A stretch of 64,000 bases of DNA, from positions 62,001-126,000 of the forward strand of contig NZ_JAGQCY010000001.1 in NCBI RefSeq assembly GCF_024346455.1. Direction: 5' to 3'. The notes under the pieces were generated by a model. It had not been told where the DNA came from, ran no database searches, and saw only the letters and a program-made list of their open reading frames with translations. This document shows, one piece after another, positions 12,718 to 64,000 of this stretch. The translations under genes and the position numbers were made by a program. Every line of letters begins with the position of its first letter. The first letter of the stretch is position 1. Source of the DNA: Cyanobium sp. Aljojuca 7A6 (GTDB taxonomy: Bacteria > Cyanobacteriota > Cyanobacteriia > PCC-6307 > Cyanobiaceae).

Positions 12718-13008
12718 TCAGGTGGACGGCGGCGATGCCTGCCTTCCTCCTGTCCACTGAGCCAGCCACAAACCAATGCCTGAACCCGCCACGAACAGGG
12801 TGAGCACGCCAAGCAGGGTGGAGCAATAGGGCTGAAGATTGATGGCCCCGAAGTTACCGATGTGCAGCTTCATCAACCAGAAAGCTTCGATGTCGCGGGC
12901 CGATAGAGCGCTGTAGAGCGAACCTGACAGGGCCGTGACCAACAGGGGGAGAGCCGCCATCGGCACGAGGGTGCGGTGCAGCCGGCGCAGCAGTTGTCGG
13001 CGGTTCAT
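12718..13008 (-). CDS. PepSY-like small membrane protein
   Basis: About 96 residues from ATG 13008 with two hydrophobic segments, near residues 15-30 and 62-82. The layout L-R-x-L-H-R, then L-P-L-L-V-T-A-L-S-G, then L-H-x-G, resembles the membrane part of PepSY-associated proteins, which often partner with ferric or copper reductases and uptake. The DUF3721 gene ends at 13005, so the stop and this start overlap as ATGA, implying coupled translation. It is the second gene of the MerR-controlled minus-strand unit. Confidence 0.65.
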   Translation of the reverse strand: MNRRQLLRRLHRTLVPMAALPLLVTALSGSLYSALSARDIEAFWLMKLHIGNFGAINLQPYCSTLLGVLTLFVAGSGIGLWLAQWTGGRQASPPST

Positions 13009-13259
13009 TCGTTTTGAAGCGCCTTGTGCAGCATCTGTTCGTTGGCACAGGGCATCCACAGGGAGCCCATCGCAAAAACCCCCTTGCACTTGAGCTCGAC
13101 AGCGCGCTTTTCGGCTTCCTGCCTGGTCTTGAAAAGGCCCTTCGTGTGGGCCGCAGCCGGTGGGCTCGTGAGTAGCGGAGAGATCGCTGCCGCTGCCAAG
13201 GCAGCCAGCAAGGCCCAGCGGTGGTAGGGCAGCAGGCGGCTGGTCTGGCGCTGGTTCAT
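13005..13259 (-). CDS. DUF3721 small exported protein, copy 1
   Basis: About 84 residues from ATG 13259: a basic N-terminus, a hydrophobic signal segment ending near A-A-A-H-T, then the DUF3721 domain. The domain reads K-T-R-Q-E-A-E-K-R-A-V-E-L-K-C-K-G-V-F-A-M-G-S-L-W-M-P-C-A-N as two adjoining blocks, with conserved Cys, Met and Cys; the His of the usual C-x-G-x-H-x-M-G is replaced by Phe here. The domain has no known function. A MerR-type promoter points at this gene, so a metal or redox role is a reasonable inference. Confidence 0.85.
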   Translation of the reverse strand: MNQRQTSRLLPYHRWALLAALAAAAISPLLTSPPAAAHTKGLFKTRQEAEKRAVELKCKGVFAMGSLWMPCANEQMLHKALQNE

Positions 13260-13467
13260 CGGGTGGTGGCGGTGTGGGTCAAGGAAACGGGCACGAGAAG
13301 GGGTCATGTCTCCATGAAGCCAGCCATCTGACCAACAGCGAAATTTTGACAAGGCTTCGAGACCTTGCCCATCGCTAAAACGTCGCTGAACTTCAGCTGC
13401 TTCGCCCACTTATCCGCGGCGGCCGTGGTCGGGACCATGTCAAAGGGATGGGGCAGATCAGAGCGAC

Positions 13468-13500
13468 AGCTTAGAGTCTCCCCATAGATGGAGAGTCAAG
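13468..13500 (-). promoter_or_regulatory. MerR-type promoter for the DUF3721 unit
   Basis: On the minus strand, TTGACT (13499-13494) is followed by a 20-base spacer and TAAGCT as the -10. The spacer holds the dyad TCTCC-N8-GGAGA. An over-long 19-20 base spacer carrying a dyad is the hallmark of promoters untwisted by MerR-family activators. It faces the DUF3721 gene and lies immediately upstream of the divergent merR gene (13504). Confidence 0.75.
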
Positions 13501-13503
13501 CCC

Positions 13504-13920
13504 ATGGCGGCCATCAGCATCGCGGCTGGGATGAAGATCGGCGTGCTGGCGTCGCGCAGTGGCCTGACCGTCAAGACCTTGCGCTACTACGAGGACCTGG
13601 GACTGCTGCCGGCGATCGGTCGCAGCGAGGGCGGCTACCGCCTGTTTACTGAGGAGAGCCTGCGGCGCCTGGAGTTCATCCGGCGCCTCAAGACCCTTGG
13701 CCTCAGCCTGGAGGAGATCCAAGGCTGCCTGGCCGTTCACGATGCCGGTGAGCTGCCCTGCGGCGACATCGAGATACAGCTGGGGCGCCAGATCAAACGC
13801 ATCGATGGCCAGATCAGGGAACTGCGGCAACTCAGAATGGAACTGCAGGAGCTGCTGGCCGGCTGGCAGCGCGATCCCGCCAAGGACGGCAATGTGATCT
13901 GCCCCAATCTTCAGGTGTGA
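13504..13920 (+). CDS. MerR-family transcriptional regulator, copy 1
   Basis: A 138-residue MerR regulator: winged-helix region with G-L-T-V-K-T-L-R-Y-Y-E-D-L-G-L-L-P and G-G-Y-R-L-F, then a long dimerisation coiled coil with L-G-L-S-L-E-E-I, and a C-terminal effector region. Cys residues occur in L-P-C-G-D-I (near 85) and N-V-I-C-P-N (near 133), spaced like the metal-binding loop of CueR/ZntR-type sensors. Met10 at 13531 is the more typical start. It is divergent from the DUF3721 unit and lies over its own target promoter. Confidence 0.93.
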   Translation: MAAISIAAGMKIGVLASRSGLTVKTLRYYEDLGLLPAIGRSEGGYRLFTEESLRRLEFIRRLKTLGLSLEEIQGCLAVHDAGELPCGDIEIQLGRQIKRIDGQIRELRQLRMELQELLAGWQRDPAKDGNVICPNLQV

Positions 13921-13976: not shown

Positions 13977-14351
13977 ATGGTGATGACAGGCAGGAGCCAT
14001 GGAGCAACGCTGACGATCCACCGACTCGCGGCAACGGCAGGACTTGGAGTGCTCGTCCTGTCCCTGGGGGCTGCAGCCCAGGGTGGGACGCCCCAAGCGG
14101 GAGGCTCTCCGGAAGGAGGGATCGGAGCAGGGAGGATGGGTCCGGGGCGGATGGGCTCCCCATCGATGGATCAACGCTTCATCGTGATGATGATTCCCCA
14201 CCACCGCATGGGCGTGATGATGGCCTCGATGGCCCAGAACACCAGCCAGCATTTGCAGCTGAAGACGCTGCAACAGGCCATGGTGTCCGGCCAGAGTCAG
14301 AAGTTTGAGCAAATGGCACAGTGGTACGGCCGCTGGTACGGAGCGACCTGA
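13977..14351 (+). CDS. Exported DUF305 protein with a single H-H-x-x-x-V/A motif
   Basis: A 124-residue protein with a signal peptide ending near A-A-A-Q, a Gly- and Met-rich linker, and the DUF305 hallmark M-M-I-P-H-H-R-M-G-V-M-M-A near residue 75. DUF305 is a four-helix ferritin-like domain often linked to copper resistance. Family proteins usually carry two H-H-x-x-A motifs; only one is seen here, so this is a half-length version. It is the next gene after merR on the same strand (56-base gap) and may belong to the same metal response. Confidence 0.85.
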   Translation: MVMTGRSHGATLTIHRLAATAGLGVLVLSLGAAAQGGTPQAGGSPEGGIGAGRMGPGRMGSPSMDQRFIVMMIPHHRMGVMMASMAQNTSQHLQLKTLQQAMVSGQSQKFEQMAQWYGRWYGAT

Positions 14352-56209: not shown

Positions 56210-57193
56210 TCAGGCCACACAGGCGCTGAAGCCGTCCCGTAGTCCTTCTGGATCGAGATCCCGGCCGATGATCACGAACTGGGTGCAGCGCCGCTCTGCG
56301 GGTTTCCAGGGGCGATCGAAATCACCGTCCAGCAGCATGTGCACCGACTGGAACACGTAGCGATTCTCCTCTCCTTTGAGCTGGATGATTCCCTTCATCC
56401 GAAACAGATCAGGCCCCCGCTTGGCCACCAGATCCGAGAGCCAGCTCCCCAGCCTGTCGAGATCCATGGGCCGCTCCTCCACCAGCGCCAGCGAGCCCAC
56501 GGCATCGTCGTGCTCGTGGGCATGCTCCTCAAGCAGGAAACCCGGATCGAGGCCCAGGGCACGCTCCAGCTCGAACGCCTCCACACCCAGGATCTGATCC
56601 ATGGGCACATCGGCTCCCGTGGTTCTCAGCAGCCTGGCCAACGGGTTGATCGCCCGGATCCTCTGCTCAATCGACAGGATCTCCTTCTCGTCCACCAGAT
56701 CAACCTTGTTGAGCACCAGGACATCGGCAAAGGCCAGCTGCTCCTGTACTTCCTCGGCCTCCCAGTGCAGGAGAACATGCTTGAGATCCACGACGGTGAC
56801 CACCGCATCGAGCGTCAGCTCATCGCGCAGGTCCTCATCGACAAAGAACGTCTGAATCACGGGTGCAGGATCAGCGAGACCGGTGGTTTCGATCACCAGA
56901 TGATCAAAGCGATCCCGACGCTTCATCAGGTTGCCGATGATGCGGATCAGATCACCACGAACGGTGCAGCAGATGCAGCCGTTGTTCATCTCGAAGATCT
57001 CCTCGTCGGCATCCACCACCAGCTGGTTGTCGATGCCCACTTCGCCAAACTCATTGACGATCACGGCCACCTTCAAGCCGTGCTCATGGGTGAGGATCCT
57101 GTTGAGCAAGGTGGTTTTACCGGCACCCAGATAGCCGGTGAGCACCGTCACCGGCAGGCGTTCGGCGGCTGGAATGGCACTGGTGAACGCCAT
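56210..57193 (-). CDS. COG0523 GTPase, second copy
   Basis: A 327-residue G3E GTPase from ATG 57193: Walker A G-Y-L-G-A-G-K-T-T, E-F-G-E-V-G-I-D, C-I-C-C-T, V-L-N-K-V-D-L, and a C-terminal W-K-P-A-E-R-R-C-T-Q. The His-rich loop is short (E-E-H-A-H-E-H-D-D), unlike the first copy at 47553. It leads the WD40 operon, divergent from zur. COG0523 proteins deliver zinc or cobalt to client enzymes. Confidence 0.93.
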   Translation of the reverse strand: MAFTSAIPAAERLPVTVLTGYLGAGKTTLLNRILTHEHGLKVAVIVNEFGEVGIDNQLVVDADEEIFEMNNGCICCTVRGDLIRIIGNLMKRRDRFDHLVIETTGLADPAPVIQTFFVDEDLRDELTLDAVVTVVDLKHVLLHWEAEEVQEQLAFADVLVLNKVDLVDEKEILSIEQRIRAINPLARLLRTTGADVPMDQILGVEAFELERALGLDPGFLLEEHAHEHDDAVGSLALVEERPMDLDRLGSWLSDLVAKRGPDLFRMKGIIQLKGEENRYVFQSVHMLLDGDFDRPWKPAERRCTQFVIIGRDLDPEGLRDGFSACVA

Positions 57194-57228
57194 GGCAAGG
57201 GGGAGAGGCCAAAAGGCCCCGAGTGGGG

Positions 57229-57248
57229 TGAGAATGGTTGTCGTTCTA
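57229..57248. promoter_or_regulatory. Weaker Zur-like site between COG0523 gene and zur
   Basis: TGAGAATGG is followed by TTGTCGTTCTAG; the outer GAGAA/TTCT parts are complementary but the core is imperfect. It lies between the divergent starts 57193 and 57280 and may autoregulate zur. Confidence 0.45.
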
Positions 57249-57279
57249 GCAGCGGCACCTTTCCATCCGCCGGGCCCCC

Positions 57280-57732
57280 ATGGCAGCTTGCGCATCGAGC
57301 ACGATCCCGATCCAGCTGGAGTCCGCTGCCCCGCCCTTGAGCCCTCGGCAGCAGAGGCTGATCCAGCTGCTACGCCAAGCGGATCGGGAGCTGAGTGGCC
57401 AGGACCTGCATGCACTGCTGACCAAAGCAGGCCCCTCCTACGGCCTTGCGACCGTGTACCGCGGCCTCAAACAGTTGCAACGCCATGGCTTGGTGCGCTG
57501 CCGAAAGCTTGCCAACGGAGAGGGTGTCTATGCCCTGCTGGAGCGGGATGATCACCACCTCACATGCGTTCTTTGCGGCCGCAGTGAACGGCTGTCGATC
57601 TGCCCGCTGGGGGCCAGTGGTTTGGGGCTGACAACCGTTCTGCTGCAGGGATTCAGGCCGTTGTTTCACACCTTCGAAATCCACGGGATCTGTGCCCGCT
57701 GCCAACACTCCGAGGCCGCCAGTTTTGGATGA
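57280..57732 (+). CDS. zur: Fur-family zinc regulator
   Basis: A 150-residue Fur-family repressor: wing-helix L-S-P-R-Q-Q-R-L-I-Q-L-L and S-Y-G-L-A-T-V-Y-R-G-L-K, then H-H-L-T-C-V-L-C-G-R with the structural C-x-x-C, and C-A-R-C at the end for the second pair. The context (znuABC, COG0523, metallothionein) favours Zur over Fur. The 3' end overlaps the next gene by 41 bases. Confidence 0.93.
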   Translation: MAACASSTIPIQLESAAPPLSPRQQRLIQLLRQADRELSGQDLHALLTKAGPSYGLATVYRGLKQLQRHGLVRCRKLANGEGVYALLERDDHHLTCVLCGRSERLSICPLGASGLGLTTVLLQGFRPLFHTFEIHGICARCQHSEAASFG

Positions 57733-58912
57733 GCTGGTGATCGCAGGGGCTGGTCCTCAGGCTCTCAGCCTCTGTTGCCAGCTGCTGCAGAAACGGCCTC
57801 ACTGGCGCCGGCGGCTACGGGTTGTGGACCCCAGTGGCACCTGGCTCTCACGTTGGGAGCAGCAGATGCAGCGCTGCGAGATTCCCTGGCTGCGCTCCCC
57901 TTCGCCCCACCATCCGCACCCCAACCCCCATGCGCTGCGGCGCTTTGCCCAGGAGCGGCGACGCAGCCGCGAACTGGAGGGCCCCCACGGTCTGCCGCAC
58001 ACAAGCCTGTTCAGCGCGTTCTGCCAGAGCGTGGTGGAGGAATTCCAGCTGGTCAAACAGGTGCAGGCGGCTTCGGTGCAGCAGATCCACCTGGATCAGG
58101 CAAAGCCTGCATCCATGGAAGTGAGACTGAGCGACGGTTCTGTCGTGAGGCCCCGCCGACTGGTGATTGCCACGGGCGTGGGCGCACCTGTGCTGCCGAG
58201 CTGGGTGCACGCCATCACGGCTGGTTATCCGGCAGAAGCCCTGCAGCACAGCCAGGCGATCGATCTCGACACCTGCGTGGGGCTGCGAGGGCAGCACATC
58301 CTGATCGTGGGTGGTGGTCTCACCAGCGCCCATCTGGCCATGGGGGCCCTCAAGCGAGGCGCTCAGGTCAGCTTGTTGTGCCGGCGGGCACTGAGCAGCA
58401 AACCCTTTGACGCAGACCCGGGCTGGATGGGTCCGAAACGTCTCAAGGACTTTCAGGCTGAGCCCTGCTGGCAGCAGCGACGCCAGCAGGTGCTGTCAGC
58501 GCGTGATGGCGGCTCCATCACGCCCCAGTTGGCTGTCCAGCTGCAACAGGCTCGCCGTCAAGGCCACCTTCAGCTCCACGAGCACTGCCAGGTGCAGACG
58601 GCTTCCTGGCATGCAGGCCAGTGGCAGATTCTCTGCCTTGACGGCAGCCGGCAACCAGCCCATCGCCTCTGGCTGGCCACAGGTCAACACCAAGGCATCA
58701 GCCACCACCCGTTAGTGCGCCAGCTGCTGGATCAACAGCCGATCGAGCTGATTGACGACCTTCCTGTGCTGACCAGCGACTTGCGGTTGCCTGGAACCAA
58801 CATTCACTTGATGGGAAGCCTGAGCGCGTTGCAGCTGGGTCCGGCTGCCCGCAACTTGTTTGGGGGCAGGGAGGCGGCGCAACGGATCGCCCGGGCTGCC
58901 ATCAAGGCATGA
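57692..58912 (+). CDS. FAD/NAD(P)-binding oxidoreductase, N-hydroxylase-like
   Basis: A 406-residue flavoprotein (GTG start). FAD-binding V-I-A-G-A-G-P-Q-A-L near residue 17, a second Rossmann motif I-L-I-V-G-G-G-L-T-S-A-H near 207, and a late L-x-x-L-Q-L-G-P-A-A-R. The order matches lysine/ornithine N-monooxygenases used in metallophore synthesis. No peptide synthetase is nearby, so a metallophore role is only suggestive. It follows zur with overlap. Confidence 0.8.
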   Translation: MPAANTPRPPVLDELVIAGAGPQALSLCCQLLQKRPHWRRRLRVVDPSGTWLSRWEQQMQRCEIPWLRSPSPHHPHPNPHALRRFAQERRRSRELEGPHGLPHTSLFSAFCQSVVEEFQLVKQVQAASVQQIHLDQAKPASMEVRLSDGSVVRPRRLVIATGVGAPVLPSWVHAITAGYPAEALQHSQAIDLDTCVGLRGQHILIVGGGLTSAHLAMGALKRGAQVSLLCRRALSSKPFDADPGWMGPKRLKDFQAEPCWQQRRQQVLSARDGGSITPQLAVQLQQARRQGHLQLHEHCQVQTASWHAGQWQILCLDGSRQPAHRLWLATGQHQGISHHPLVRQLLDQQPIELIDDLPVLTSDLRLPGTNIHLMGSLSALQLGPAARNLFGGREAAQRIARAAIKA

Positions 58913-58990
58913 ATCCGGGAACACCTTCAGGGCCGCAGACTCTGCCGCCGCTCTGGATCCAGCCAGCCAGGCCCAACCTGGCCTCAAGTC

Positions 58991-59173
58991 TCAGCCATGG
59001 CAGTCACAGCCACAGCCGGAGTGGCAGGGTTCACCGTTGGGATGCCCCTTGGCGCAGACCTCGCTGCAGAACAGCAAGGCGCCGTTGCGGAACGGGCTGT
59101 CCTCTTGCACCGTGCAGTGGCAGCCCGGGCAGGCGCACTGCAGCGTGGCGGGTTTCTCCAGGGTCGCGTTCAT
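58991..59173 (-). CDS. smtA: SmtA-type metallothionein
   Basis: A 60-residue bacterial metallothionein with ten Cys: C-A-C-P-G-C-H-C near residue 13, F-C-S-E-V-C-A-K-G-H near 35, and P-C-H-S-G-C-G-C-D-C-H-G at the end. The pattern matches Synechococcus SmtA, which binds zinc and cadmium in a Cys/His cluster. It is not preceded by an obvious SmtB operator (TGAACA repeat), so control may differ. It is the last gene of the zinc region. Confidence 0.93.
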   Translation of the reverse strand: MNATLEKPATLQCACPGCHCTVQEDSPFRNGALLFCSEVCAKGHPNGEPCHSGCGCDCHG

Positions 59174-59464: not shown

Positions 59465-59752
59465 ATGCGCCTCGACGACCTGCTGGCTCAGGCTCCAAGG
59501 ATCCGGGAGATCGCCACCGCGCACGGCGCCACCAATCTGGCGGCGTTCGGCTCCGTGGCCCGTGATCAGGCCGGACCCGACAGTGATCTCGACCTCCTGG
59601 TGGACCTGCCCCCCCGCACCGGCCTGCTGGAGCGCATCGCCCTGAAGCTGGCTTTGGAGGACATGCTGCATTGCCGCGTGGACCTGATTCGCCGCCGCAA
59701 TCTCAAACCAACCGCTCTGGCCTCTGCTGAGCGGGATGCGATTCCCCTGTGA
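59465..59752 (+). CDS. mntA: MntA-type nucleotidyltransferase antitoxin
   Basis: A 95-residue minimal nucleotidyltransferase: F-G-S-V-A-R, then D-S-D-L-D-L-L-V-D with the metal-binding Asp pair, followed by D-L-I-R-R. In type VII toxin-antitoxin systems MntA AMPylates a Tyr of the HEPN toxin HepT. The stop overlaps the hepT start by four bases (ATGA). Confidence 0.85.
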   Translation: MRLDDLLAQAPRIREIATAHGATNLAAFGSVARDQAGPDSDLDLLVDLPPRTGLLERIALKLALEDMLHCRVDLIRRRNLKPTALASAERDAIPL

Positions 59753-60091
59753 TGTCACCAAGGGACCGTGATGCCCTGGCTGACATCCTGACCGCGATCC
59801 GTCGGATGCAAGGGTTTCCCATCCCCGATCGCGAGACGTTCCTGGCCAGCGACGTTCTCCAGGACGCCGTGGTGCGCAATCTCGAGATCATTGGAGAAGC
59901 CACCAAGCGGCTGAGCGACAGTTGCCGCCAGCAACATCCGCTGATTCCCTGGCGGGAGATGGCCGCGATGCGGGATGTGCTGATCCATGCCGATGACCGC
60001 GTGGACTCGAGGAGGTGTGGATTACCCTGAGCGAGTGAGCGAGCAACTACCTGCGCTTTTCGCACAGATCGAGCCTTTGCTCAGCGAGTGA
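59749..60091 (+). pseudogene. hepT: HepT-type HEPN toxin, frameshifted
   Basis: 93 codons are readable: D-A-V-V-R-N-L-E-I-I-G-E-A-T-K-R and M-R-D-V-L-I-H-A-D-D near residue 79. The HEPN motif R-x4-H is present, but the H-x-Y Tyr is Asp. The frame is lost near 60004: in another frame L-E-E-V-W-I-T-L-S-E follows, and then, after another shift, S-E-Q-L-P-A-L-F-A-Q-I-E-P-L-L-S-E to 60091. So the C-terminus is broken twice and the AMPylation Tyr is absent. Confidence 0.8.
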
Positions 60092-60720
60092 TCAGGTGGC
60101 CACTGATCGGGGCCGCTTCCCTCATCGCCGGGTGGTGCAGCGGCTTCTCCGTTGGCCTGGCGAAAGCTGAACAGCAGGTTCGCGCCACGGTGCTCTCGAT
60201 CGGGGACGGCGACACCATCCGTGTGCTGCAGGGACAGCAGCGGCTCACGATCCGGCTGGCCTGCATTGATGCTCCGGAGATGGCGCAGGCTCCTCTGATG
60301 GCACCAACGCCCGCCGCTACCTGCAGAGCCGGGCGCGGCTGGGCTCCAGCGTGACCCTCAGGCCCCAGACGGTGGATCGCTAAGGCCGCACGGTGGCGGA
60401 GGTGATCGGGGAGGTGAATCTGAACCTGGCGCTGGTGGAAGACGGCATGGCCTTTGCCAACCGCAACCACCTCGGCCAGTGCGATGCCGGGAGGATGTGG
60501 AGGCCGAGTTTCAGGCGTCCCGCAGCCGCTACGGGGTATGGAGGGTGCCGGGTGGAATCACCCGCCCCTGGGACTTTCGAGGTGGCAGAACAGCGGGGCG
60601 ATCAGCCAGCACCGCCGAATCGATTCCTGGTGGCCGGAGGTTACGCTGCCGCAGGATCGGCTCCTTTGCACGCACCCAGGAGTTGCTGCGGCTTCTGCTG
60701 GCCATGGGGTCCTCACGATT
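60088..60720 (+). pseudogene. Thermonuclease (SNase) pseudogene B
   Basis: The start GTG 60088 overlaps the hepT end. After a signal-like N-terminus come T-V-L-S-I-G-D-G-D-T-I-R-V and I-R-L-A-C-I-D-A-P-E-M, then a frameshift, T-V-D-R-stop (TAA near 60381), G-R-T-V-A-E-V-I, another shift, and S-R-Y-G-V-W-R-V-P-G-G-I-T-R-P-W-D-F. The end has G-S-F-A-R-T-Q-E-L-L-R. All SNase blocks are present in order but in three frames. Confidence 0.85.
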
Positions 60721-60751: not shown

Positions 60752-61162
60752 TCAACGTTGCAGTTTGGACCCTCCGCAGTCCTGCCAGCTGCTGAGCAGA
60801 CGTGCCAGCTCGTCTTTCATGGCGGCGAGCTCACCGATCCGCAGGTTGATCGATTCCATCTTTGCCGCAATGCTGTCTTTTAGAACACCGCAGTTGCAGA
60901 CACCAGCTCGGCGCACTTCCAGGATCCTCGCCAACTCTGGAATCGAGACGTCCATCGCCCGCAGGGCTCGAATGATCGCCAGCTCAGCGAGATTCTCCTC
61001 ATCAAACAATCGGTATCCACCGGCGGAGCGATCCTTGGGCTGGAGCAGGCCCTCATCGCAGTAATAACGGATCGTCTTCACCGGCAGGCCGGTGCGCCTG
61101 GCTACCTCGCCGATGCGCAGGCTGGGAGCAGGGTTTGCTGATAGGGATCCCTGGCGGGCCAA
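60752..61162 (-). CDS. MerR-family transcriptional regulator, copy 2
   Basis: A 136-residue MerR protein (TTG 61162): L-R-I-G-E-V-A-R-R-T-G-L-P-V-K-T-I-R-Y-Y, then G-G-Y-R-L-F, D-V-S-I-P-E-L, and a C-terminal C-N-C-G near residue 91, the C-x-C metal-ligand pattern. Another Cys lies in W-Q-D-C near 129. It is divergent from the DUF3721 unit at 61279 and may activate it. The exact start codon is uncertain because no ATG is available. Confidence 0.9.
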   Translation of the reverse strand: MARQGSLSANPAPSLRIGEVARRTGLPVKTIRYYCDEGLLQPKDRSAGGYRLFDEENLAELAIIRALRAMDVSIPELARILEVRRAGVCNCGVLKDSIAAKMESINLRIGELAAMKDELARLLSSWQDCGGSKLQR

Positions 61163-61167
61163 GGCAA

Positions 61168-61186
61168 GAACCCTCCACTGGGTAGA
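61168..61186. promoter_or_regulatory. Imperfect MerR-type dyad
   Basis: ACCC-TCCACT-GGGT (61170-61183) is a small palindrome next to the MerR start, a possible operator. No -35/-10 pair with a 19-20 base spacer is clear. Confidence 0.3.
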
Positions 61187-61278
61187 AGCTTCACCAGCCT
61201 AGGAGGCGCCATAAAGCGAGGGAAGCTGGCCAAGAGTCTCCAGCAGTCGCGCGTTACTAGAGACATTCGCTAGGGTGG

Positions 61279-61566
61279 GTGCTCAGCAGGCCAGCCTGCG
61301 CTCGCACCCGTCCCGTGTCGATCCTTTCAAGTCCGTGGCCAGCTCGGGCAGCAGCCGCGATCGGAGCCAACCTCCTGCTCTCCGCCGCTGGGCTGGCCTC
61401 TCCAGCCGCCGGTTCTGGCGGCGTCCCGGCGATGTACGCCACCCAGGCAGAAGCGGAGAAGGCCGCCAAGCTGCATTTCAACTGCACCGGCGCCCACAAG
61501 ATGGGAGATCAGTGGATGCCCTGCGCCAAGCATGGTGGCGCCCAGGGCTCCTCGCACTCCCACTGA
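61279..61566 (+). CDS. DUF3721 exported protein, copy 2
   Basis: About 95 residues (GTG 61279; GTG 61315 possible), with a signal segment ending near A-A-G-S-G-G. The domain reads M-Y-A-T-Q-A-E-A-E-K-A-A-K-L, then N-C-T-G-A-H-K-M-G-D-Q-W-M-P-C-A-K-H, a full C-x-G-x-H-x-M-G-x-x-W-M-P-C-x-x-H. The C-terminus ends in S-H-S-H. Cys, His and Met together suggest a copper or zinc site. It begins the three-gene unit opposite MerR copy 2. Confidence 0.85.
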   Translation: MLSRPACARTRPVSILSSPWPARAAAAIGANLLLSAAGLASPAAGSGGVPAMYATQAEAEKAAKLHFNCTGAHKMGDQWMPCAKHGGAQGSSHSH

Positions 61567-61580
61567 GGCCAGGCACTCCC

Positions 61581-61985
61581 ATGGCCCAGTGTGGCGACAA
61601 GCCCAAGCGGATCGCTTTCGGGGTGGCGCCCCTGGGCATCATCTCGATCGGCATCGTGCCGATGGGGGTGGTGAGCATCGGCGTCGTGCCAATGGGGGTG
61701 ATCAGCATCGGGGTGGTGGGCATGGGTGTGCTCAATGCCTGCGTGGTGGGGATGGGGGTGGTGGTGGCCGGTGTCAGTGCCATGGGGATCTGGTCGCTGA
61801 CCCCAGGCAGTGGCCATCAACACCACAGCAGCGGGGCGGCGCAGCAACAGCTGCTGGCCTACCCGAGCCGGCAGGTGGCCCTTCAGAAAGCGCGTGAGCT
61901 GGGCTGCGAGGGCGTGCACGCCATGGGTGACCTCTGGATGCCGTGCTCTGAGCATTCAACGCAACATTCCACACATCAACACTGA
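61581..61985 (+). CDS. Decapeptide-repeat protein with DUF3721 end
   Basis: A 134-residue protein. After a basic start it has five or six ten-residue repeats of the form G-[IV]-V-P-M-G-V-[VI]-S-I (about residues 14-70), then an S/G/H-rich linker and a C-terminal DUF3721 domain, G-C-E-G-V-H-A-M-G-D-L-W-M-P-C-S-E-H and a His-containing tail. The repeats are hydrophobic and could form membrane segments or a beta-solenoid. It starts 15 bases after the previous stop. Fusion of these parts is unusual. Confidence 0.8.
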   Translation: MAQCGDKPKRIAFGVAPLGIISIGIVPMGVVSIGVVPMGVISIGVVGMGVLNACVVGMGVVVAGVSAMGIWSLTPGSGHQHHSSGAAQQQLLAYPSRQVALQKARELGCEGVHAMGDLWMPCSEHSTQHSTHQH

Positions 61986-61988
61986 ACA

Positions 61989-62186
61989 ATGAAATCGATT
62001 CGCAACCTCAGCGCGGCCCTGATCTTTACCCTCCTGGCATCCACGCCTGACGCCCTGGCCTGTGGCGGCGGCGGGTCAGGCAGCTATCGCAAACCAGCCC
62101 GGCCTGGCCAGCACCAGCATCAACACAGTCCGGCGGTACCATCCTCCGAGAAAGAATCCACAACTCCCCAGGTCGCTCCCCGGTAG
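61989..62186 (+). CDS. Small exported Gly/His-rich protein
   Basis: A 65-residue protein with a signal peptide (likely cleavage near D-A-L-A), a mature start C-G-G-G-G-S-G-S-Y, then a H-Q-H-Q-H-S cluster and a polar tail. It begins three bases after the previous stop, so it is the third gene of the unit. A metal-binding role is likely from the Cys and His but unproven. Confidence 0.65.
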   Translation: MKSIRNLSAALIFTLLASTPDALACGGGGSGSYRKPARPGQHQHQHSPAVPSSEKESTTPQVAPR

Positions 62187-62234: not shown

Positions 62235-63863
62235 TCAGAAGCGGAAGCTCGTCTTCACCAGTCCGCCGAACTGACTGAAGCTTTCGCCCGAAGGTGTTGC
62301 CTGGCCGAGGGGGCGGCTGAGATAGATCAGAGCCGGTGTGATCGAGATGTTGTCAGTCACCTGAAACTTGTACCACCACTCCCAAACATAGTTGCCGTCG
62401 TTCGGGGTTACGCCGCCGCTGAGCGCTGTAGCAAAGACGGGTTGGGCCACAGCAAAGCCGAAGTCATTGCCCTTGGCGAACACATCGGTCCACTGCAGAC
62501 CCACCATCCAGGACTGGCTGGTGCTGAGGCTGCCGCGGGGTTGGGGCGTGCTGTAGGTGGTGCTGTTAATTCCCCATCCGAGGCTCAGGGAAGGCAGCCA
62601 ACCGCTGCGGAGCGGTTGCCAGAAAGCGCTCAGGCCCCAGGCACTGGTTGAGGCATTGATGTTGTGATCGATCGCGCTGTGAGTAAACGGGGTGGTTCCC
62701 GGAACGAACTGGGTCTCCGGTTGCACATAAGACCAGATGGCAGCCAGACCCCATTGCTCCTGCTGATAGCCCAGCTGCACGCTCGCGGTGGCGCCGGAAT
62801 TCCTGTTGCCAAGACCACCGCCACCGTCCTCCACCGAAACACTGGGATTGCCGCTGTCGCCATTGGCGGCCACATAGTTGGCACTGAGGCTGAAGCCATT
62901 GCTCTGCCACCACAACCCTGCACCAGCGCCGAGATTCTTGCTGTAGGCCGCCGGCGCACCATTCACCGTCATCACGTTAAGGATGGTGTCCGCCGGATAC
63001 ACGCTGGGCCACAGCGCCAGCATGTCTTCCTGCCCCACGCGGGCACCCAGGGTGGCCGTGAACCCACCACCGAGGGGCCATTGGTAGAAGAGCTTGTCAA
63101 TGGAGACGACGTCGCCGCAGTCGGTTCCGGTCCCGCAATCCTCTTCGAACGCCACTTCAAGCTCAGCCAGGCCGAGGGCATGCGGTTCACCACCAAACAC
63201 GCTTTGGCCGAAGTTGCCGGCCCGCAGATTGGTGCGCAGCAGATCCTTGCCGGTGAAGCTGGTGTCGAAGGTCAGCTGCACGTCGTAGTTGAACGTGGTG
63301 GCATTGGGCAGGGGTACGGGCGTCCGTGGACGGCCCGTGAATTCATTCGGTGCCCGATTGACCGTGTTGGCCCCTGTGTTGATCGCCGATCCTGAGAAGG
63401 TATTGGCGCCCACCACAAACGTGGCCTGGCCGCTCAGCTTGGTGGTGGTGGAGAACCGGGTGGCCTCCAGCTCACCCACCTTGGCTTCGAGGCCATCGAC
63501 GCGGCCGCGCAGCATGGCGAGTTCCTTCTCGAACTCGGCCATCAGGCGCTTCAGCTCGTCGGTCACCTCGGTGATCCGGTCGAGGCAGGCGTTGAGCAGG
63601 GCGGCGGCCTCGTAGCGGGTCATGGCCTGACCACCCTTGTAGGTGCCATTGGGGTAGCCGGCGACGCAGCCGTAGCGCTCAATCAGGTTGGTCAAAGCCT
63701 GAAAAGCCCAGTCGCTCGGCCTGACGTCGGAGAACTGGGTGATGCTGGTGACCTGCTCCTGGGTGGCGTATCGGTTCACACCCGCCATGTCGAGGTTCGC
63801 GGCGTGGGACGCCAGCGGAGCCGCCAGACCGACAGCGATGAGCGTGGAACGCAGAGGAAGCAT
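62235..63863 (-). CDS. som: SLH-OprB outer-membrane porin
   Basis: About 542 residues from ATG 63863, with a signal peptide (cleavage near S-H-A-A). An SLH-type region follows (F-S-D-V-R-P-S-D-W-A-F-Q-A-L, Y-G-C-V-A-G-Y-P-N-G-T-Y, A-M-T-R-Y-E-A-A-A-L-L), then a coiled coil (L-K-R-L-M-A-E-F-E-K-E-L) and an OprB-type beta barrel ending in F-R-F. Such porins anchor to the wall through SLH and admit small solutes. It is the major outer-membrane protein type in Synechococcus. Confidence 0.95.
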   Translation of the reverse strand: MLPLRSTLIAVGLAAPLASHAANLDMAGVNRYATQEQVTSITQFSDVRPSDWAFQALTNLIERYGCVAGYPNGTYKGGQAMTRYEAAALLNACLDRITEVTDELKRLMAEFEKELAMLRGRVDGLEAKVGELEATRFSTTTKLSGQATFVVGANTFSGSAINTGANTVNRAPNEFTGRPRTPVPLPNATTFNYDVQLTFDTSFTGKDLLRTNLRAGNFGQSVFGGEPHALGLAELEVAFEEDCGTGTDCGDVVSIDKLFYQWPLGGGFTATLGARVGQEDMLALWPSVYPADTILNVMTVNGAPAAYSKNLGAGAGLWWQSNGFSLSANYVAANGDSGNPSVSVEDGGGGLGNRNSGATASVQLGYQQEQWGLAAIWSYVQPETQFVPGTTPFTHSAIDHNINASTSAWGLSAFWQPLRSGWLPSLSLGWGINSTTYSTPQPRGSLSTSQSWMVGLQWTDVFAKGNDFGFAVAQPVFATALSGGVTPNDGNYVWEWWYKFQVTDNISITPALIYLSRPLGQATPSGESFSQFGGLVKTSFRF

Positions 63864-64000
63864 GGAACAGAGTCTCCAGAGCACCGCCGGGCTGGCGGCT
63901 TGCTCGAAATAATCACCCATGTCTCCACCAACTCGCGAGCACTGGAGACAACGGTCATGGTTTGGACACCACAGCCAGGCCGTCGCTCCCGGCCACGGTT
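63864..64000. other. Upstream region of the porin gene
   Basis: The frame remains open to 63920 without family text. I see no further gene; the porin promoter should lie here or beyond the window. Confidence 0.4.

Follow-up and report, generated by a model that had tools for sequence, protein, structure and literature searches.

A MerR-linked tandem DUF3721 operon in picocyanobacteria as a putative metal-stress locus

CadR and PbrR are sensors of divalent metals, and in the divergons of CadR, PbrR, ZntR and CueR the regulator gene is divergent from its target, an efflux pump. The textbook signature of a MerR promoter consists of a -35 box, a 19- or 20-bp spacer that holds the dyad, and a -10 box (PMC1526738). 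In cyanobacteria, copper-linked periplasmic binding proteins of unknown fold are represented by CopM of the Synechocystis copMRS system (PMC4335983), and the metallothionein BmtA/SmtA, under Zur, is a small metal-buffering protein (PMC9337993). Here we describe a locus at about 61 kb in a 64,000-nucleotide stretch (the window) of the 3.13 Mb picocyanobacterial genome of Cyanobium sp. Aljojuca 7A6, where a MerR-family gene, merR2, faces three genes, two of which encode DUF3721 proteins. We consider it probable, from sequence evidence, that this is a metal-stress operon, in which MerR2 would switch on three genes whose products bind excess metal in the envelope and either buffer it or hand it on.

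The 61 kb locus resembles the known divergons in its divergent regulator and in a cysteine of MerR2 at the CadR/PbrR ligand position, but its targets are putative DUF3721 envelope proteins instead of an efflux pump, MerR2 carries C-x-C and W-x-x-C-G-G rather than the known Cys spacing, and the operator has wider arms lying over the -35 position. BmtA/SmtA, a homologue of which is encoded 1.6 kb from merR2, belongs to the same organism group, but it is cytoplasmic, Zur-activated and Cys-rich, and unrelated to DUF3721 (PMC9337993). We found no paper in the open literature that names DUF3721 or describes its combination with GLTT repeats; the literature on zinc and cadmium responses names no DUF3721 genes, and a search of the copper-tolerance literature yielded nothing relevant. 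The locus gives a testable function to an uncharacterised family that is nearly universal in picocyanobacteria: with its main class tied to a metal-type MerR operon and one class to a copper regulon, a metal-handling role can be tested in phototrophs abundant in oceans and lakes. It also exposes an unusual MerR operator. We regard the handling of copper or zinc by the family, at a site outside the cytoplasm, as very probable.

The 61 kb locus and the DUF3721 family

The features of the locus are as follows.

60752..61162, minus strand: merR2, MerR-family regulator of the C-x-C ... W-x-x-C-G-G subfamily (PF13411, 71.7 bits, cut-off 21.6)
61238..61262, plus strand: putative MerR2 site, operator dyad CTCC(A)-N17-AGAG, found by promoter comparison
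61271..61276, plus strand: TAGGGT, conserved -10 box (TANNNT) of the DUF3721 operon, its 8-base spacing from the dyad fixed in 24 relatives
61315..61566, plus strand: short DUF3721 protein, 83 amino acids, signal-peptide-like N-terminus (PF12518, 56.9 bits, cut-off 27)
61581..61985, plus strand: GLTT-DUF3721 membrane protein, 134 amino acids (PF01744, 49.4 bits, cut-off 21; PF12518, 56.3 bits, cut-off 27)
61989..62186, plus strand: third gene, small protein of 65 amino acids with a lipobox-like LAC, GGGGSGSYRKPxRP and a His-rich tail, kept in 17 loci

A preliminary description of the locus had placed, within 60752-62186, a MerR with C-N-C-G facing a unit of three genes with two full-motif DUF3721 proteins, and in all of this it was right. 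Its picture of small exported proteins does not hold for the second protein, a GLTT membrane protein that has no signal peptide. The three genes are separated by gaps of 14 and 3 bases, with merR2 divergent and an SLH-OprB porin gene convergent downstream. The frame of the short DUF3721 gene is open from 61279, and comparison with ATG-starting relatives makes the GTG at 61315 its most likely start; relatives likewise place the start of the GLTT-DUF3721 gene at the ATG at 61581. The latter protein, conserved in 46 aligned relatives, has an invariant N-terminal CG-x-KP, about 60 hydrophobic residues arranged as ten-residue GLTT repeats (hydropathy), which form a hydrophobic anchor, and a C-terminal DUF3721 domain. 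The Pfam models PF12518 (DUF3721) and PF01744 (GLTT repeat) both match above cut-off, and both are names without function; the third protein matched no Pfam or NCBIfam family. The nearest records with the locus are those of Cyanobium sp. Cruz CV13-4-11 and Cruz-8D1, whose GLTT protein is 98% identical. Synechococcus sp. WH 5701 also has the locus with the CNC-type MerR (L100).

Both DUF3721 proteins carry the full motif C-x-G-x-H-x-M-G-x2-W-M-P-C-x2-H. Among the distinct tandem-pair sequences (82 short and 87 GLTT, 169 domains together), C, G, H, M, G, W, M, P, C and the next H are kept in 78-82 of the 82 short and 84-87 of the 87 GLTT domains, or 95-100% per position. Because Cys, His and Met are near-invariant in this class, a soft or borderline metal site would be the best reading of the ligand set; the preliminary description had proposed a soft-metal site. 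The near-invariance does not extend to the class found at 13 kb in the window (type I, below), in which the final His is absent (0/13), Met is replaced by Asn in 9/13 and His by Phe in 4/13. Across all DUF3721 classes, no residues other than the two Cys and WMP are invariant. The domain is predicted to fold as a strand, a helix and a hairpin (AlphaFold2, predicted local distance difference test [pLDDT] 85-90), and no PDB relatives were found by sequence or by fold. Fold matches of the GLTT protein were discarded as meaningless, the mean pLDDT of its model being 54.

Of 58 genomes of the picocyanobacterial family Cyanobiaceae, 57 carry DUF3721, with several copies each, whereas the 328 cyanobacteria tested from outside the family have none. 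The recurring layout is a tandem of short and GLTT-DUF3721 genes, seen from freshwater Cyanobium and Vulcanococcus to Prochlorococcus, where the short protein has a lipoprotein-like signal at its N-terminus and often a His run at its end. We rejected a phage or plasmid origin: the GLTT protein was unmatched in plasmids and viral contigs, and the short protein in phages. A third DUF3721 locus of the same genome (L006, contig C18, 5021-6629, minus strand) has no MerR; there, a transporter gene of the bile acid symporter family (SBF) overlaps a short DUF3721 and a GLTT-DUF3721 gene, an arrangement kept in several relatives (L058, L134, L136, L138 and L144).

The pairing of MerR with DUF3721 was surveyed in the 58 Cyanobiaceae genomes, which hold 39 MerR_1 hits, counting as adjacent any hit within 1.6 kb of DUF3721. 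Sixteen of the 39 were adjacent, all of them divergent, against 0.09 expected by random placement. These cases are not independent events, but they span two well-separated MerR clades and three arrangements; the source genome has three MerR_1 hits only, two of which face DUF3721. The preliminary description had named two outcomes that would speak against a functional link, namely DUF3721 members usually lacking the Cys, His and Met residues and adjacency no greater than chance; both were tested and neither was found. The link is real, and stronger than first stated, because the operator follows the regulator (next section). No MerR hit occurs in 37 of the 57 DUF3721-bearing genomes, and MerR control is therefore a facultative add-on, not a property of the family.

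The product of merR2 has the winged-helix domain and, in addition, the dimerisation helix (PF09278, 38.5 bits). The conserved Cys set of its subfamily is C-x-C plus W-x-x-C-G-G, with few exceptions, and the G of C-N-C-G is not conserved. In alignment, the second Cys of the CNC falls on the Cys that serves CadR and PbrR as a metal ligand, and the metal-sensor models (CadR-PbrR, CueR, ZntR) score above those of SoxR and NmlR; MerR2 stays far below every curated NCBIfam equivalog cut-off examined (CadR-PbrR, CueR, ZntR, MerR), its best score being 75.1 bits against the 151.45 required for CadR-PbrR. A group of type I regulators, the CTC group, nests within this subfamily. Elsewhere (L068, 4784-9949) a CNC-subfamily MerR gene lies directly downstream of an SLH-porin gene, together with Fur-family and ZnuABC genes and without DUF3721, so that this MerR may also serve a porin.

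An operator that accompanies the regulator

The promoter element of the 61 kb type (type II), CTCCA-N14-CTRGAG-N8-TANNNT, was present with at most two mismatches in 25 of the 27 promoters of MerR-adjacent short DUF3721 genes, as opposed to 2/66 DUF3721 promoters without an adjacent MerR, 0/16 type I promoters and 0.1 in shuffles. The two MerR-adjacent promoters that miss it are one mis-binned type I gene and one with a one-base shift. The two unlinked carriers (L104 and L106) belong to genomes E1_MAG_00006 and FGCU52, and since both genomes have this MerR locus elsewhere (L087 and L085, respectively), control in trans is likely. The element is missing at MerR genes of the merR2 subfamily that do not face DUF3721 (L068, L102, L133). 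In its strict form, CTCYA-N15-TRGAG-N8-TAG, it occurs once in the source genome, at window position 61238.

The type II half-site resembles that of type I, with the arms nine bases further apart. The type II dyad is centred about 23 bases upstream of the middle of the -10 box, which puts it over the -35 position and not within a 19- or 20-bp spacer; the promoter shows no -35 consensus. A canonical 19/20-bp promoter was rejected after a search around both conserved CTCC motifs. With wider arms whose centre falls at -35, the sequence gives no evident sign of the usual mechanism, the untwisting of the spacer. One CadR-type palindrome without a 19/20-bp promoter has been described, and its authors suggest a changed mechanism there (PMC1526738). 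Closer to merR2, the motif AACCCTCCA...GGAA/GAAG (61163-61210) is not conserved throughout the clade, and no promoter boxes are suitably placed around it; it is possibly an autoregulatory site.

Tentatively, and with more doubt than confidence, we suggest that the CNC-subfamily MerR departs from the 19-20-bp rule. It would use the half-site of its CTC sister group, but with the arms set wider by about one turn of the helix and their centre at a -35 position that has no -35 box. It would then activate by touching polymerase, or act as a pure repressor, and would not untwist the spacer; the genome has a single strict site for it, at the putative metal-handling operon of DUF3721. The operator contrast between the sister subfamilies also lends itself to testing how strictly the spacer rule of MerR proteins applies.

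A probable metal-stress role and the alternative explanations

In the mechanism we favour, a cytoplasmic MerR2 dimer would use its C-x-C and its C-terminal Cys to bind a metal of the soft or borderline kind and, on the dyad just upstream of the TAGGGT box, would turn on the three co-oriented genes. The short DUF3721 protein would reside in the periplasm, as a lipoprotein in the case of Prochlorococcus; the GLTT-DUF3721 protein would be held in the membrane with its DUF3721 domain outside the cytoplasm. Both would display the same C-x3-H-x-M-x6-C-x2-H ligand set and, together with the His-rich third protein, could bind, buffer or relay surplus metal in the envelope. Two neighbours bear on this.

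58991..59173, minus strand: prokaryotic metallothionein, 1.6 kb from merR2 (PF02069, 42.1 bits, cut-off 33)
62235..63920, minus strand: SLH-OprB porin, convergent (PF04966, PF00395)

Support comes from a sister DUF3721 class of the same genome that shares a MerR copper regulon with genes for a CopM-like DUF305 protein and a Cu(I)-ATPase, from metallothionein genes beside DUF3721 loci in the window and in two relatives (L065, L183), from the His-rich tails, and from the SLH-porin, ZnuABC or SO_0444-like permease genes that some tandem pairs have nearby. As to the metal, the sequences suggest Cu(I) and Zn/Cd at about equal odds. The CadR/PbrR-like Cys points to a divalent metal, as do the metallothionein, a COG0523 GTPase and a Fur-family gene, all within 5 kb of the locus; the CTC group nested in the MerR2 subfamily sits in copper clusters, which points to copper. 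Tandem pairs of relatives have ZnuA or ZnuB nearby at 7/60 loci, a Fur-family gene at 4/60 and an SO_0444-like Cu/Zn permease at 5/60.

Several points weigh against a metal-stress operon. Most tandem pairs have no MerR, so that their basic role may be housekeeping rather than stress; activation is not assured, because the operator geometry is not that of a canonical MerR; metal hints near tandem pairs are confined to a minority of loci (as for ZnuA or ZnuB, above); and the Cys pair could be a structural disulphide.

In one alternative, which we regard as unlikely, the tandem pair is a metal acquisition module that helps zinc or another metal on its way from a porin of the outer membrane to ZnuABC or a similar importer, with MerR tuning it, perhaps by repression. 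An SLH porin lies within 5 kb of 19 of the 60 tandem-pair loci, which together with the ZnuA/B neighbours, the presence of the pair in nearly all picocyanobacteria, which live at low metal, and a dyad whose place over the -35 position would suit repression, speaks for acquisition. However, Zur boxes are missing from the pair's promoters, the reported Zur regulon of WH8102 consists of the znu cluster synw0968-0973 together with bmtA and the gene next to it (PMC9337993), and metal-sensing MerR proteins normally activate detoxification (PMC1526738). Zur control of the pair was rejected: boxes with at most three mismatches to the consensus lie near znu genes and not consistently at DUF3721 promoters.

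It is very unlikely that the unit is a redox or thiol stress operon, in which the CxC MerR would sense disulphides and the two Cys of DUF3721 would form a disulphide of structural or redox function. Such an operon would fit the invariance of only Cys, Trp-Met-Pro and Cys across all classes and the redox sensing of the MerR relatives SoxR and NmlR, but the tandem class keeps His and Met as strictly as Cys, the CadR-PbrR, CueR and ZntR models outscore the two redox sensors, and the neighbours are metallothionein and copper genes. We give hardly any credence to an adjacency of MerR and DUF3721 through descent only, with no regulation, which would suit the 37 of 57 DUF3721 genomes without MerR, since the operator tracks MerR and not the gene (25/27 versus 2/66) and the type I half-site spacing shifts with the MerR subfamily (N8 in LPCGD genomes, N7 in CTC genomes).

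The type I locus at 13 kb and other neighbours

The window also contains a type I locus.

13504..13920, plus strand: merR1, of the LPCGD...ICPNL subfamily, in a clade separate from merR2 (PF13411, 67.2 bits)
13478..13499, minus strand: type I MerR operator with -35, TTGACTCTCC-N8-GGAG; -10 TAAGCT after a 20-bp spacer
13005..13409, minus strand: type I DUF3721 gene (PF12518, 51.5 bits), which probably begins at 13259 or 13307 and has 79% identity to a relative
13322..13444, minus strand: remains of another DUF3721 copy, without the first Cys and the Trp (56% identity over 41 amino acids, 45 bits by tblastn)
13977..14351, plus strand: DUF305 (CopM-like) gene with one repeat left (PF03713, 51.6 bits); the two repeats of a relative match the same stretch

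The preliminary description had taken the 61 kb locus as a repeat of this one. A MerR-DUF3721 partner does exist at 13 kb, but we rejected one system repeated twice in the window, as the MerR subfamilies, the operators, the partner genes and the DUF3721 motifs all differ. The type I gene set consists of MerR, DUF305 (CopM-like), DUF3721 and a PepSY-like gene, and in relatives adjoins genes for multicopper oxidase, DUF411, glutaredoxin-MauE, a two-component system and a Cu(I)-ATPase. The promoter has TTGACT, a 19- or 20-bp spacer with CTCC-N7/8-GGAG, and then the -10, so that the 13 kb locus, by its 19/20-bp promoter, resembles the CadR/PbrR/ZntR/CueR divergons.

The pattern TTGACTCTCC-N7/8-GGAG occurred 40 times in 18 of the 58 genomes, against twice for the reversed control. 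Among the matches listed, all LPCGD-type MerR genomes had N8 and all CTC-type genomes N7; a further N7 match, in a genome without such a MerR (G318), is probably due to chance. The source genome has three occurrences of the pattern: one belongs to the 13 kb locus, one lies at a gene for a CopM-like DUF305 protein, and one precedes a P-type ATPase with CPC, YN and MxxSS motifs. Because the operator recurs only at the CopM-like gene and the Cu(I)-ATPase, the reading of type I as a copper regulon is well supported by these sequences. A CopM-like DUF305 gene belongs to the regulon, which in this resembles copMRS (PMC4335983); DUF305 and DUF3721 are unrelated in sequence. The CopM model NF049983 (cut-off 90) was not reached by the DUF305 protein of the window (31.8 bits) or by a paralogue in L182 (81.3 bits). 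The 13 kb locus is partly decayed: its second DUF3721 copy, still present in relatives (L065, L067), survives as a relic, and the DUF305 gene has gone from two repeats to one.

Upstream of merR2, positions 56210-59173 hold a metal-flavoured cluster of a COG0523/CobW GTPase, a Fur-family regulator, an FAD-NAD(P) oxidoreductase and the metallothionein (PF02069). Between this cluster and merR2 lie, both on the plus strand, an MNT nucleotidyltransferase and HepT-like toxin-antitoxin pair (59465-60030), whose HepT frame stops early and is apparently truncated or frameshifted, and a remnant resembling a thermonuclease-type (SNase) gene (60088-60540), split over several frames, the first piece of which has no Pfam match. 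A marine relative (L183, 3566-4237) has a type I DUF3721 gene paired with a PepSY-like gene, with no MerR, and a metallothionein-like gene is their direct neighbour.
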